NCBI GenBank assembly: GCA_902623995.1 | Contig: CACNWE010000009.1 | Span: 1 to 64,000, forward strand | Source: an uncultured SAR116 cluster alpha proteobacterium | GTDB taxonomy: Bacteria; Pseudomonadota; Alphaproteobacteria; Puniceispirillales; Marisalimonadaceae | Direction: 5' to 3' | DNA: 64,000 nt | Part shown: piece after piece, positions 4,126-57,755 of the stretch | How positions within the stretch are numbered: position 1 is the stretch's first letter | How the letters are laid out: every line of letters begins with the position of its first letter | Program-made: the position numbers and the translations under genes | Notes under the pieces: generated by a model | Told to the model about the DNA's origin: nothing | The model's input: the letters and a program-made list of their open reading frames with translations, nothing else | The model's database searches: none

Positions 4126-4509
4126 TTATACAATATCAAAAATTACTGCTGGTTCTCCATTTAATGAAGAAATTCTAGCTTTAACCTTTTGACCAATTTC
4201 AACTTTATCTGGATCTATACCCTCAACTCTTGCCATCATCCTTGGACCTTCTTCTAGTGTAATCAAGGATAAGTTAAAGTCTCCACCCTTTTCAGGTAAT
4301 CTTCTATTACAAGAAGAACTATACACTACTCCATTTCCAGAAGCTTCAACCCATTCAAGATCACGCTCACCACTTCCAGGAAAGGCAACACGAGGATGAA
4401 ACAAAAATTGATTGAGACTTTTACATCTTTGAATCATAAATTTACCCTCTGATAAAAAATTCTTAAATTGCTGTTCTGGCCCTACTGTACCTGTTAAGTT
4501 TTCCGGCAT
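4126..4509 (-). CDS. DUF35 OB-fold protein with degenerate zinc ribbon
   Basis: 127 residues; ATG preceded by GGGGGA. The N-terminal part aligns in pattern with the rubredoxin-like ribbon of DUF35 proteins (FHPR at 37-40 matches the usual YPR), but only Cys29 remains of the four zinc-binding cysteines. The C-terminal half is the OB-fold (VEIGQKVKARI and AVIFDIV strands). DUF35 proteins bind thiolase-like partners and help seat the acyl-CoA. Here the partner is clearly the cysteine-less thiolase immediately downstream. Loss of the ribbon suggests a structural role without zinc. Family assignment is good; function is inferred from pairing. Confidence 0.8.
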   Translation of the reverse strand: MPENLTGTVGPEQQFKNFLSEGKFMIQRCKSLNQFLFHPRVAFPGSGERDLEWVEASGNGVVYSSSCNRRLPEKGGDFNLSLITLEEGPRMMARVEGIDPDKVEIGQKVKARISSLNGEPAVIFDIV

Positions 4510-18909: not shown

Positions 18910-18974
18910 ATATGAAATATATCTATTGTTAATATATTCTTATAATTCAACCAAATCAAATACAGGGGGTGTTT

Positions 18975-19709
18975 ATGGCTAATTTTAATGGACAAACTGC
19001 AGTTATTACTGGTGGAGCTCAAGGGATTGGACTAGCAACTGCAAAAAGATTTATTAATGATGGCTGTGAAGTTATGATTTGGGATATTGATAAAAAGTTG
19101 GGTATGGATGCTGCAAAAGAACTTAATTGCCATTTTTTAGAAGTTGATCAAACTGATAATAAAGTTGTAGAGCAAGCTACGGCTGAAACAATTAACAAGC
19201 TAAAAAAAATTGACATATTAGTATGTAGTGCAGGTATAGCAGGTCCGACCTTTTCAACATGGGATTATCCAGTTGAAGAGTGGTCAAAAGTTTTCAACGT
19301 AAATGTTAATGGTGTGTTTTATTGCAACAAATATGTTGTTAAAACTATGCGAGAAAACGGATATGGTAGGATTATTAATATAGCATCTATTGCCGGAAAA
19401 GAAGGCAACCCTAATGCTCCTGCTTACTCAGCATCAAAGGCTGCTGTTATTGGATTAACTAAATCTCTTGGAAAAGAAACGGCTGATCAAGATATTGCAG
19501 TTAATTGTATTACTCCTGCAACGGCAAAAACAAGAATACTTGATCAAGTATCACAAGAATTTATTGATTACATGCTGTCTAAAATACCAAGAAAAAGATT
19601 TGTAACCGTTGATGAGATTGCTTCTTTAATTACTTTCTTAGGAAGTAAGGAGAATAGTTTTACTACAGCTGGAGTATTTGACATATCAGGAGGTAGAGCT
19701 ACATATTAA
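18975..19709 (+). CDS. Short-chain dehydrogenase/reductase (FabG-like)
   Basis: 244 residues from ATG at 18975, chosen over GTG at 18969 because AGGGGG (18964-18969) then sits five bases upstream. The cofactor loop is TGGAQGIG and the catalytic residues are present: Ser in NIASIAG, and YSASK. An acidic DID after the second strand (WDIDKK) predicts NAD(H) preference. The C-terminal ISGGRATY end is usual. It is a classical SDR acting on a hydroxyl/keto pair, probably of a sugar or hydroxy acid given the neighbours. The stop codon is one base before a chain of hairpins. Confidence 0.85.
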   Translation: MANFNGQTAVITGGAQGIGLATAKRFINDGCEVMIWDIDKKLGMDAAKELNCHFLEVDQTDNKVVEQATAETINKLKKIDILVCSAGIAGPTFSTWDYPVEEWSKVFNVNVNGVFYCNKYVVKTMRENGYGRIINIASIAGKEGNPNAPAYSASKAAVIGLTKSLGKETADQDIAVNCITPATAKTRILDQVSQEFIDYMLSKIPRKRFVTVDEIASLITFLGSKENSFTTAGVFDISGGRATY

Positions 19710-19710
19710 T

Positions 19711-19806
19711 GGTGAGGATTTTAAGGAGATCCTCTGCACCTAATTCAAACTAATCACTAGGGAGGGAAGTATTAGTTTTGAGCACAATTAAACGGGGGAG
19801 TTTAAT
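19711..19806. ncRNA. Candidate structured RNA: three consecutive hairpins with purine-rich loops (anti-SD-like loops if read on the minus strand)
   Basis: Three adjacent stem-loops lie between the 3' ends of an SDR gene and lysE. H1 (19711-19740): GGTG/CACC plus AGGAT/ATCCT with a CTG bulge, loop TTTAAGGAG. H2 (19747-19778): AAACTAAT/ATTAGTTT plus ACT/AGT with a single C bulge, loop AGGGAGGGA. H3 (19787-19806): ATTAAAC/GTTTAAT, loop GGGGGA. On the plus strand every loop has a GGA core, as in CsrA-sequestering RNAs. On the minus strand the loops read TCCCCC, TCCCTCCCT and CTCCTTAAA, like the anti-SD loops of alphaproteobacterial CCUCCUCCC ('cuckoo') small RNAs. A perfect minus-strand TATAAT (19819-19824) would start transcription just before H3, though without a good -35. 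Strand and function are inference. Confidence 0.5.
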
Positions 19807-19818
19807 GAACTTTGCATT

Positions 19819-19824
19819 ATTATA
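19819..19824 (-). promoter_or_regulatory. Possible -10 element for a minus-strand transcript of the three-hairpin region
   Basis: The minus strand reads TATAAT here, an exact match to the -10 consensus, with a predicted start around 19811, immediately before hairpin H3. No convincing -35 is seen 16-18 bases upstream (best match only GAC). In so AT-rich a genome such hexamers are common, so this is weak alone and rests on its position. Confidence 0.25.
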
Positions 19825-19924
19825 TGTCGATTCGTTGGGTAAGTCGTGATATGTTTTGTAAATCAAAAAACAAAGTATATATTTGCCAAAAATTTGAGCA
19901 TAAAAAATTAGCTAAATTAGTAGG

Positions 19925-19941
19925 TGATTAATATTTAATCA
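19925..19941. terminator. AT-rich hairpin at the 3' end of lysE / SDR intergenic region
   Basis: TGATTAA and TTAATCA form a perfect 7-base stem with a TAT loop. It is followed on the plus strand by a short T-rich run (TTTTAT), and on the minus strand it begins 3 bases after the lysE stop codon. It may end transcription in either direction, but the stem has only one G-C pair. The rest of 19807-19924 holds a weak stem near 19822-19852 and otherwise nothing I recognise. Confidence 0.3.
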
Positions 19942-19943
19942 TT

Positions 19944-20546
19944 TTATATCTCTGAATTTAATTCCATGAAAGCGGAAAGGACAACAACTGCAAATAAAGC
20001 CAGGCCCATTCCCCTGTTAACCCAAATTTGTTTATTAACACCTAATGACCATTTCTTTAGACTTATTCCTAACCAAAGCCATAATAAATGTATTGGTATC
20101 CAAATAGAATTAACAATAATAAATTTTACAATAATTTCAGTATTGAATGATGCCAGTCCAAGAGATAAAACTACAAACAAGTGACCTTGCACAACATAAG
20201 CTTTAGGATTAACAAATTGTAAAAAAATACCTTCATACAATCTAGGTACTTTCAAACTCTGCTTAAACCCAGTTTTGTTGTCAGACGTAGCTATTCGCCA
20301 AGATAGAAAAGATAAATAAGATAAAGAAAGAAGCAAGAAAGTAATTTCAACACCATCAATCTCAAACAAAAATTGTTTGAAGCCTAAAACTACTAATAGT
20401 GCAACTCCATTAGTTCCAAAAAATAAACCAATGAGATACATCATACCAACTTTCCAACCAAAGCCTGCACCAACACCTGCTAATGATAATACACCTGGGC
20501 CAGGAGTAACCATCATTAAAAAACTAATAATTATGTATGTAATCAT
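19944..20546 (-). CDS. LysE/RhtB family amino-acid exporter
   Basis: 200 residues with about six membrane helices. The N-terminal MMVTPGPGVLSLAGVGAGFG (residues 11-30) carries the TPGP motif typical of LysE/RhtB translocators, and the following GLFFGTNG is also family-like. Members export amino acids or derivatives. The inner-membrane helices alternate as expected, and a basic segment (SLKKWSLGVNKQIWVNRG) precedes the last helix. A small inverted repeat (TGTAGA/TCTACA, 20554-20571) lies just upstream of the start. The cargo is unknown. Confidence 0.83.
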   Translation of the reverse strand: MITYIIISFLMMVTPGPGVLSLAGVGAGFGWKVGMMYLIGLFFGTNGVALLVVLGFKQFLFEIDGVEITFLLLSLSYLSFLSWRIATSDNKTGFKQSLKVPRLYEGIFLQFVNPKAYVVQGHLFVVLSLGLASFNTEIIVKFIIVNSIWIPIHLLWLWLGISLKKWSLGVNKQIWVNRGMGLALFAVVVLSAFMELNSEI

Positions 20547-39295: not shown

Positions 39296-39401
39296 ATGAT
39301 CCTAACTGAATTTTAAAAATATTCTCATTTGGTGAACAAAAATGTAATTAAACTACAATTTGTATGTTACGATTTTTTTAAAATAATTGAAGTAAAAGTT
39401 A

Positions 39402-39599
39402 ATGATTAATAATAATAAAATTAATAACCCATTAATTTGTTTAAAAACTAGATCAAAAGCAAAAATAATTGACTTTTTTGATAAAGATAAAGTTCGATAT
39501 GCAAAAATTAAAATTGAAGTAGAATTTGGGAATACATCAGTTCAAGTTTTAAGGTCACTTCAATTAAATGAAATTGACAACTATTTTAGTCTTTCTTAG
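39402..39599 (+). CDS. Small hypothetical protein
   Basis: A 65-residue open frame in the space between the cyclase and lrgB. It is basic at the N-terminus, has no membrane segment, and ends with a beta-strand-like VEFGNTSVQVLRSLQL. I recognise no family. Only a weak SD-like GAAGT precedes the ATG. The frame exactly fills the gap and overlaps no other likely gene, which is the main support. It could be spurious. Confidence 0.35.
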   Translation: MINNNKINNPLICLKTRSKAKIIDFFDKDKVRYAKIKIEVEFGNTSVQVLRSLQLNEIDNYFSLS

Positions 39600-39614
39600 T
39601 TATCCATGAATAAT

Positions 39615-40729: not shown

Positions 40730-41971
40730 TCAAAAAAAGGCCTGAATACCCGTTTGTGCTCTACCTAATATAAGTGCATGAACGTCATGAGTGCCTTCAT
40801 ATGTATTAACAGTTTCTAAATTCATTAAATGACGCATCACTTGGTATTCAGCATGTATACCATTTCCCCCGTGCATATCCCTTGATTGTCTAGCAATTTC
40901 AAGTGCTTTACCACAATTATTTCTTTTTATGAGCGAAATTGCTTCTGGTGCTAAATTACCCTGATCAAATAACCTTCCAACTTGAAGTGCCGCACCTAAA
41001 CCTAATGCAATTTCAGTTTGCATATCTGCTAATTTTTTTTGAATTAGTTGAGTAGCTGCCAATGGTTTACCAAATTGTTTTCTATCTAATGTGTACTGGC
41101 GAGCTCTATGCCAACAGTCTTCAGCTGCTCCCATCACTCCCCAAGCTATGCCATATCTTGCTCTATTCAAACAGCCAAATGGTCCTTTTAGACCAGTTAT
41201 ATTTGGCATTAGATTTTCATCTGGAACAAAAACATTGTCCATAACAATTTCACCAGTTATAGACGCTCTAAGTGATAATTTTCCTTTTATTTTTGGTGCA
41301 CTTAAACCATTCATTCCTTTTTCAAGTATAAATCCTTTAATGGCGTCACCATGTTCTTTAGACTTAGCCCAAACAACAAAAACATCAGCTATTGGAGAAT
41401 TAGAAATCCACATTTTTGAACCAGATAAAGAATATCCACCCTTAACTTTTGTTGCTGTAGTTTTCATAGAGCTAGGATCTGATCCAGCATCTGGTTCCGT
41501 CAATCCAAAACAACCAATAAGATCACCTGAAGCCAAACCTGGTAAATACTTTTGTCTTTGTTCTTCACTTCCGTAGGTATAAATTGGATGCATTACTAAA
41601 GAGGATTGAACAGACATCATTGATCTATAACCTGAGTCAACTCTCTCTACCTCTTTGGCTACTAGTCCATAGGATACGTACGAAGCACCAGCACAACCAT
41701 ACTTTTCAGGAATAGTAATTCCCAACAAACCAAGTTCTCCCATTTCTTTAAAGATATTTTTATCTGTTTTTTCTTCTAAAAAAGCTTCCTCTACTCTTGG
41801 TAAAAGTTTAGCTTGAGCGTATTCATGAGCAGTTGATTTAATTAGAGCCTCTTCTTCAGAAATCAAAGAATCTAATAAGAGGGGATCTTCCCAGTTAAAA
41901 TTGGGTTTAACTTTTGACTTTGATTTAAGATCAACTACATTTTTTTGATCTATATCAATACTTGTATCCAT
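40730..41971 (-). CDS. gcdH: Glutaryl-CoA dehydrogenase-like acyl-CoA dehydrogenase
   Basis: 413 residues. The FAD-binding segments [18 protein letters not shown] and [17 protein letters not shown], the substrate Arg region [10 protein letters not shown] and the catalytic Glu in [17 protein letters not shown] are those of glutaryl-CoA dehydrogenase, including [10 protein letters not shown] near the N-terminus, typical of GcdH. It oxidatively decarboxylates glutaryl-CoA to crotonyl-CoA, at the end of lysine or tryptophan breakdown; FadJ at 9007 could continue. AAGGA precedes the ATG. No glutarate CoA-transferase gene is adjacent. Confidence 0.88.
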
Positions 41972-56846: not shown

Positions 56847-57755
56847 ATGAGTGAACCGATAGCTTTTATTGGTCTTGGCGCAATGGGAGGACCAATGGCT
56901 CTAAATATTATAAAAAAGGGAACAAATTTATCTGTTTATGACATAGAAAAAGAAAAGATGCAGCCCCACATCAAGTCAGGAGCTGTTCCAGGAAATAATA
57001 TTAAAGATACTGTTGAGGATGCAGAAATTATTGTAACAATGTTGCCATCTACAGAAAATGTTAAATCCGTAATAATCGACCCTAATGGTGTTTTGTCATA
57101 CATAAAGCCTGGATCGATTATATTAGATATGAGTACAATTGCTCCAACAGGAACAGATGAAATATATGAGATATGTAAACAAAAAGATATTGATTTTATA
57201 GATGCTCCAGTTGGCAGGTTAGTAAGTCACGCAATCTCTGGAGATTCTCTTTTCATGGTAGGATGTGATAATGAAGAGGCTTTTAAAAAAATTGAACCAT
57301 TACTTAATGCAATGGGAACCACAATTATAAGATGTGGGAAAGTTGGGTCAGGAATAAGAGCAAAAGTTGTTAATAATTTTCAAATACTAAGTATTGCTCA
57401 AATAACTGCTGAAGCCCTTACACTTGCTCAAAAAATTGGTTTAGATTTAAATACATTTAAAGAAGTAAACGCTGGAACAACTGCTAATAATGGACAGTTC
57501 CATATTAATTTTTTATCAAAAGTACTAAAAAATGATATTGAACCAGGATTTACAATTGATCTTGCTCATAAAGACATGGGGTTAGCAATTGAGACGGCAA
57601 ATAGTTTTAGAGTTGGTTTACCAGTTGGTTCATCAGTCCAAGCAGTTTATGGTCAAGCAAGATCTGGCAAATTTGCTAAAAAAGATTTTAGCGCATTACT
57701 TGATTATGCTTGTGAGCTTGCTGAAGTTGATCCACCAAGAATTAAAAAAAGTTAA
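56847..57755 (+). CDS. YihU-like (3-sulfolactaldehyde reductase-like) hydroxyacid dehydrogenase
   Basis: 302 residues of the 3-hydroxyisobutyrate dehydrogenase family. The nucleotide motif is FIGLGAMGGPMALNI. The substrate loop reads DAPVGRLVSHAISGDSLFM, with GR in place of the common SGG. This, together with GIRAKVVNNFQ and FTIDLAHKDMGLAIETAN, resembles E. coli YihU as I recall it; the catalytic Lys is in the RAKVVNN segment. YihU reduces sulfolactaldehyde to dihydroxypropanesulfonate; the reverse is also possible. It is divergent from zwf. Tartronate-semialdehyde reductase is the main alternative. GGGAGAAG precedes the ATG. Confidence 0.72.
   Translation: MSEPIAFIGLGAMGGPMALNIIKKGTNLSVYDIEKEKMQPHIKSGAVPGNNIKDTVEDAEIIVTMLPSTENVKSVIIDPNGVLSYIKPGSIILDMSTIAPTGTDEIYEICKQKDIDFIDAPVGRLVSHAISGDSLFMVGCDNEEAFKKIEPLLNAMGTTIIRCGKVGSGIRAKVVNNFQILSIAQITAEALTLAQKIGLDLNTFKEVNAGTTANNGQFHINFLSKVLKNDIEPGFTIDLAHKDMGLAIETANSFRVGLPVGSSVQAVYGQARSGKFAKKDFSALLDYACELAEVDPPRIKKS

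Follow-up and report, generated by a model that had tools for sequence, protein, structure and literature searches.

A conserved array of three tandem hairpins with Shine–Dalgarno-like loops in SAR116 bacteria, a candidate regulatory RNA

Bacteria of the SAR116 cluster abound in surface seawater, and a narrow literature search, with most subscription papers outside its scope, found no paper on the small RNAs (sRNAs) of SAR116 or Puniceispirillum. In the 64,000-nt stretch of SAR116 DNA analysed here (contig CACNWE010000009.1, positions 1 to 64,000, referred to below as the window), a preliminary description had picked out three adjacent hairpins at 19711–19806 and had read them as an sRNA that either titrates a regulator (plus strand) or blocks Shine–Dalgarno (SD) sequences (minus strand). 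Which strand of this array would be read, and what would its loops bind? The three hairpins are borne out at these positions and lie between two convergent genes:

18969–19709, plus strand: short-chain dehydrogenase gene of a sugar-metabolism type, likely start ATG 18975 after ACAGGGGGTG (by eye), its stop codon preceding the array
19714–19734, no strand assigned: hairpin 1, GAGGAT (19714–19719) paired with ATCCTC (19729–19734), loop TTTAAGGAG, minus-strand loop CTCCTTAAA
19735–19741, no strand assigned: conserved linker TGCACCT between hairpins 1 and 2
19747–19778, no strand assigned: hairpin 2, AAACTAAT (19747–19754) paired with ATTAGTTT (19771–19778), plus ACT/AGT, loop AGGGAGGGA
19787–19806, no strand assigned: hairpin 3, ATTAAAC (19787–19793) paired with GTTTAAT (19800–19806), loop GGGGGA
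19944–20546, minus strand: LysE-type translocator-like gene, convergent with the dehydrogenase gene (PF01810, E 0.00032, below the curated cut-off)

Taken alone, the window's copy is unremarkable, with single-sequence folding z-scores of −0.54 (plus) and −1.44 (minus) over 166 nt, and −1.37 and −2.41, respectively, for a 117-nt core. No Rfam family reached its gathering threshold in the window, and at E values up to 10 only mir-611 (0.84) and SAM-II (4.9) were reported between 19600 and 20000. Nor does the array occupy the only large intergenic region, as had been stated: when ORFs of at least 120 aa are considered, the gap at 39296–39614 is longer (319 versus 234 nt). A small ORF 3′ of hairpin 3 (ATG 19805, by eye) was rejected, as relatives do not keep it.

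Evidence for a structured RNA element comes from related genomes. A BLAST search of 101 genomes, the window's own included, found the region and 39 loci were taken, of which 32 carry the array; the remaining seven (L042–L048, from genera g2 and g4) lack it but have a similar dehydrogenase 3′ end. The 32 array loci and the window were aligned using MAFFT (33 sequences) and a covariance model was built from the alignment. The search for three-hairpin homologues that the preliminary description had proposed was productive, with 33 loci recovered in 32 of the 58 genomes of the window's family (E ≤ 2.5e-17): 30 of 40 in the window's genus, both of those in g3, none of 13 in g2 and none of three in g4. 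Array-negative genomes include one that is 99% complete (G014). An order-wide search covered 136 genomes, of which 78 belong to other families provided that the set includes all 58 of the window's family. Run with strict filters and with 25 candidates per genome scored, it gave a single weak match outside the family (G061, E 0.03). That match was left out of the count, as were weak matches in G045, judged from sequence, and in G002 and G006, which fall within open frames. A further model match lies at L025:2417–2550 (E 0.0016). In a pattern scan of a named genome collection, 32 of 51 matches were the array, judged by neighbouring genes, and these came from 24 SAR116 cluster records and eight other alphaproteobacterial or proteobacterial records. 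The rejected matches were 18 with 44–76% GC, where the rest of the array is absent by eye, and one located between masked stretches. Because hairpin 1 was part of the pattern, the scan would overlook arrays lacking that hairpin; applied to a viral collection, the same pattern gave no matches.

These homologous intergenic regions keep both stems and loops, so that one of the two outcomes named beforehand as counting against the preliminary description did not arise. All six pairs of the hairpin 1 stem are invariant in the 33 sequences, and the GCACCT of the linker is equally constant, with its leading T altered in L017 only and the linker retained where a possible 5′ partner, GGTG, has been lost (e.g. 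L021, L023 and L025). Stems 2 and 3 drift yet mostly stay complementary, examples being GACAATAAT/ATTATTGTC in L040 and L041 and GTAG/CTAC in hairpin 3 of L036. Among 18 close relatives, array columns show 0.68–1.0 identity, compared with 0.38–0.55 in parts of the adjoining spacer. On the plain MAFFT alignment, covariation was not above shuffles (five double-change pairs against 3.5, with 84 of 500 shuffles as high), in part because the divergent stems are misaligned, and covariation support therefore rests on a test of loop flanks. That test used 14 of the 33 sequences, chosen as lineages and not all independent. Flanks of loop 2 beat shuffled flanks in 13 of the 14, where no more than 60 of 2000 shuffles did as well, and those of loop 3 in nine (no more than 82 of 2000). 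Hairpin 3 of the window itself is one of the other five (204 of 2000).

The loops themselves point to a function. Across the 33 sequences the plus-strand loop cores remain G-rich (AAGGAG, GGGAGG, GGGGGA or similar), and loop 2 is AGGGAGGAA in most close relatives where the window has AGGGAGGGA. Read from the minus strand, the loops are CUCCCCC (hairpin 3), UCCCUCCCU and CUCCUUAAA, all three different. They resemble three kinds of SD sequence on the plus strand and anti-SD sequences on the minus strand and, judged by these likenesses, the array probably tunes protein production by base-pairing at SD sequences.

How it would do so depends on the strand. We tentatively favour, narrowly ahead of a sponge read from the plus strand, a minus-strand anti-SD sRNA; this part of the preliminary description stands as the leading, if unproven, option, although the likeness to cuckoo RNAs drawn with it does not amount to membership of that family (see below). 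A putative transcript of ~110–140 nt, its strand, transcription and repressive effect all being predictions, would start from a candidate promoter near 19819–19847 and carry the hairpins in the order 3, 2, 1. With its open loops CUCCCCC, UCCCUCCCU and CUCCUUAAA, each suited to a separate class of G-rich ribosome-binding site, the RNA would mask such sites and repress a small set of mRNAs, the first candidate being the TRAP transporter gene dctP. The conserved stems, with loops G-rich on the plus strand and C-rich on the minus strand at 33 loci, count for this proposal.

The link to dctP comes from loop 2. The window's own genome contains TAGGGAGGNA three times. One copy is that of the array, a second lies at the SD that serves a DctP-family TRAP gene, and the third does not precede a start codon. 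The word is not enriched, since its reversed control occurs seven times. Thirty dctP loci (L161 and L169–L197) were examined out of 45 matching genomes and two gave no start; in all 28 readable leaders the SD region ATACTAGGGAGGAATT is identical. It stays constant while the sequence upstream varies, a constancy that seems to exceed the needs of an SD alone. The eight genomes that conserve it equally without having the array indicate that the array alone does not explain this. Loop 2 has 13 nt (ACTAGGGAGGAAT) in common with the dctP leader in most clade-1 relatives, 10 nt in the window and fewer in divergent arrays. A duplex between minus-strand loop 2 and the dctP leader is predicted at −20.3 kcal/mol, compared with −15.3 kcal/mol for the most favourable window leader, that of gene 56847–57755, in a set of 62 (of the 63 ORFs of at least 120 aa, 41091–41576 was excluded). 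For minus-strand loop 3 the best window leader is that of gene 4126–4509 (−17.5 kcal/mol), and minus-strand loop 1 reaches only −11.6 kcal/mol among leaders (dctP, −11.2). Exact 11-mer and 8-mer words of loops 1 and 3 were also compared with the window's own genome, and by eye none falls at a start codon; one 8-mer is followed by an ATG after 4 nt, but there the sequence looks like the interior of a coding frame. G-rich SDs are scarce in the 62 leaders (AGGAG 3, GGGGG 2, AGGGAG 1, GGAGG 0) and such loops could therefore be selective. Few window ORFs of at least 120 aa have any recognisable SD, their start codons being uncurated. We count the loop 2 match, its predicted duplex with the invariant dctP SD region and the scarcity of G-rich SDs in favour of a minus-strand sRNA. 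Against it we count the conservation of the dctP SD without the array, the shorter match in divergent arrays and the lack of exact start-codon matches for loops 1 and 3.

A candidate signal for transcription of the minus strand lies on the array's LysE side:

19819–19847, minus strand: promoter-like pair, ACGACT (19847–19842), 17 nt, TATAAT (19824–19819)

The perfect TATAAT to which attention had been drawn is present, but the perfect form is not common to relatives, which have TATAAG, TATAAA or others. The GAC of the −35-like hexamer is kept in all 18 clade-1 rows, with the −10 conserved only loosely, and in eight of the 18 no site scores better than the pair with 17-nt spacing. In 25 of the 33 rows another site scores best; shuffles mostly do as well as the real sequences, and 29 of 200 were as good as the window's pair. 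On the minus strand, no U-run longer than four (L023) follows hairpin 1 in the rows inspected, and the window has no strong terminator directly after the array on either strand. The conserved GAC counts for a minus-strand sRNA, whereas the shuffle-level promoter scores and the want of a U-run, in a genus whose alphaR8-like sRNAs have terminators, count against it. A plus-strand promoter candidate before hairpin 1 (TTGACA-18-CATATT) was rejected; it lies inside codons of the dehydrogenase C-terminus, and most divergent relatives have GAT in place of its GAC codon.

Further tests of strand gave little separation. Folding z-scores are more negative on the minus strand in all 33 sequences (means −3.30 versus −1.42), but simulated arrays with strand-neutral stems reproduce this asymmetry in 40 of 40 cases and we set it aside as evidence. 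Wobble counts are near equal, at 24 GU contexts versus 23 AC, and favour neither strand. In 17 of the 33 sequences, loop cores are predicted to be more open on the minus strand (means 0.95, 0.94 and 0.91) than on the plus (0.66, 0.78 and 0.74), a gap that leans towards the minus strand but is largely intrinsic, as most of it also appears in controls. For hairpin 1, accessibility exceeds that of the control in 17 of 17 on the minus strand, but with means of only 0.95 versus 0.86, and in 15 of 17 on the plus. Within the limits of the contigs, the loci compared have identical gene order, and synteny is thus uninformative on strand.

Two relatives have a second tandem hairpin pair with anti-SD-like loops, at ~1490–1560 in both L131 (reached via a weak model match in G010) and L137. 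Its C-rich strand has the loops UUCUCCCU and UUCCCCC/UCCCCCC, including the words CUCCCU and CCCCC, and ends in U8–U9 in both; in L137 this strand keeps a U–G pair where the opposite strand has a C–A mismatch. U-runs are also found on the G-rich strand, as U7 after the GGGGGG hairpin (L137) and U8 after the last hairpin (L131). The second locus is therefore ambiguous: U8–U9 and the U–G pair count for a minus-strand reading of the array and the G-rich strand's U-runs against it.

Complementarity of loop 2 to another class of RNA makes a plus-strand sponge a serious rival. AlphaR8 sRNAs (MmgR, SisA–D) are described as consisting of a weak hairpin, a single-stranded UUUCCUCCCU and then a Rho-independent terminator. 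The 10-mer UUUCCUCCCU occurs at 96 sites in 44 of the 58 family genomes, at about the frequency of its reversed control. Fifty sites were inspected: 43 lie in open frames of at least 155 codons and seven do not, and in six of these seven (L213, L219, L220, L222, L223 and L227) UUUCCUCCCUU precedes a terminator-like stem containing GC and then a U-rich tract. Searching for homologues brought in L249, L251, L252, L254–L256, L258 and relatives, with multiple copies in some genomes (G001, G006 and G039). By their sequences, these loci in SAR116-type genomes fit the described alphaR8 layout. Loop 2 is predicted to pair with same-genome alphaR8-like cores at −14.9 to −20.5 kcal/mol in all nine genomes compared, three of them with variant cores; the best of the 62 window leaders reaches −11.6 to −15.6 kcal/mol. 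There is precedent in Caulobacter crescentus, where CrfA, a starvation-induced sRNA, is described as binding UUUCCUCCCU via a G/A-rich stem loop (PMC12559287; PMC10253847 is a further source). Plus-strand loop 2 of the array is likewise G/A-rich and complementary to the alphaR8 core; the array, however, abuts a stop codon, and the comparison is with the described features of CrfA.

By analogy with CrfA and SisA–D, then, the array would form the 3′ terminus of the dehydrogenase transcript, or be cut from that mRNA, and its SD-mimic loops would titrate alphaR8-type sRNAs, so that a catabolic mRNA lifts repression of uptake genes such as dctP. In keeping with this, stem 1 begins 4–13 nt past the stop codon of the same dehydrogenase gene across loci, such an RNA would need no promoter of its own, same-genus alphaR8-like sRNAs combine UUUUCCUCCCUU with strong terminators, and L040 and L041 have U7 on the plus strand after hairpin 2, a feature that also counts against the minus strand. 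Were hairpin 2 the transcript end in these two loci, however, retention of hairpin 3 would be unexpected. A good fit to the alphaR8 core is confined to loop 2 (loop 1, −6.2 to −8.2 kcal/mol; loop 3, −7.9 to −13.5 kcal/mol), and plus-strand loop 1 is half buried by U–G/U–A pairs. Moreover, the sole alphaR8-like copy found in the window's own genome (L257, G000:C14:1427–1608, minus strand) is degenerate, with core bases lost (UUUGUCCCUU), and the exact UUUCCUCCCU of that genome falls within a long open frame. We regard the sponge as possible but doubtful. A broader version, in which a 3′UTR with three different SD mimics titrates several anti-SD sRNAs, alphaR8 via loop 2 and others via loops 1 and 3, such that substrate breakdown would lift sRNA repression of uptake, seems to us rather unlikely. 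It is improbable that the hairpins simply protect the dehydrogenase mRNA or help to terminate it, with G-rich loops that are incidental. The position directly past the stop codon, the U7 of L040 and L041 and an AT-rich inverted repeat at 19925–19941 followed by TTTT on the plus strand would suit such a 3′ end, but near-invariance of hairpin 1 and GCACCT in 33 sequences exceeds what a terminator needs, loops are kept while stems drift, no long U-run directly follows hairpin 3 (by eye), and the seven similar dehydrogenase genes of g2 and g4 do without the array.

Comparison with known RNAs bears on the remaining proposals. The cuckoo or alphar14 RNAs (NfeR1, SmelA075 and CcsR) are defined by CCUCCUCCC in every hairpin loop (PMC10746234, PMC3927594), with stem sequences free to vary (PMC4504443). 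The array is like them in its tandem hairpins and, on the minus strand, its anti-SD loops, and shares with NfeR1 the number of hairpins, three. Its loops differ from one another, however, and none is CCUCCUCCC, and no array terminator was seen; stem variation is mixed, with stems 2 and 3 varying and stem 1 invariant (33 of 33). By the family's defining features, the array is not a member. As for alphaR8, minus-strand loop 2 of most close relatives is AUUCCUCCCUA, which has UUCCUCCCU in common with the UUUCCUCCCU core. In the array this core-like word lies in a hairpin loop with no terminator, whereas the alphaR8 core is single-stranded and a terminator follows; that layout is found at separate loci such as L249 and L251.

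Titration of CsrA by the plus strand, also raised in the preliminary description, fares worst. All three window loops contain GGA and, in CsrB/RsmY-type RNAs too, GGA recurs in successive loops. However, the CsrA family (PF02599) was found in none of 61 genomes, the window's own included, many of them incomplete, in a search that detected csrA in three of 14 named controls; in L038, moreover, loop 3 is GGGTGA, which breaks the GGA. We consider a CsrB-like role highly improbable. If base-pairing is indeed its function, the conserved array, whose three SD-class loops all differ and which occurs alongside alphaR8-like sRNAs and an unvarying ribosome site for DctP, would open TRAP uptake to tests of control by sRNAs, and would do so in a group whose searched genomes yielded no csrA.

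Two further observations concern sequences outside the array. The weak order-wide match in G061, from another family of the order, corresponds to L133 (~1533–1639), where TTCCTCCGCACCTC and then a strong terminator sit in the gap after a succinyl-CoA ligase-like gene. Within the window, the spacer contains one other conserved element:

19871–19906, no strand assigned: second conserved block, CAAAGTATATATTTGCCAAAAATTTGAGCATAAAAA

This AT-rich block (TATATTTGCCAAAAATTTGAGCATAAAAA), in the spacer that separates the LysE-like gene from the array, has a column identity of 0.82–1.0 in the 18 clade-1 sequences, compared with 0.71 and 0.57 in the adjoining six-base bins.
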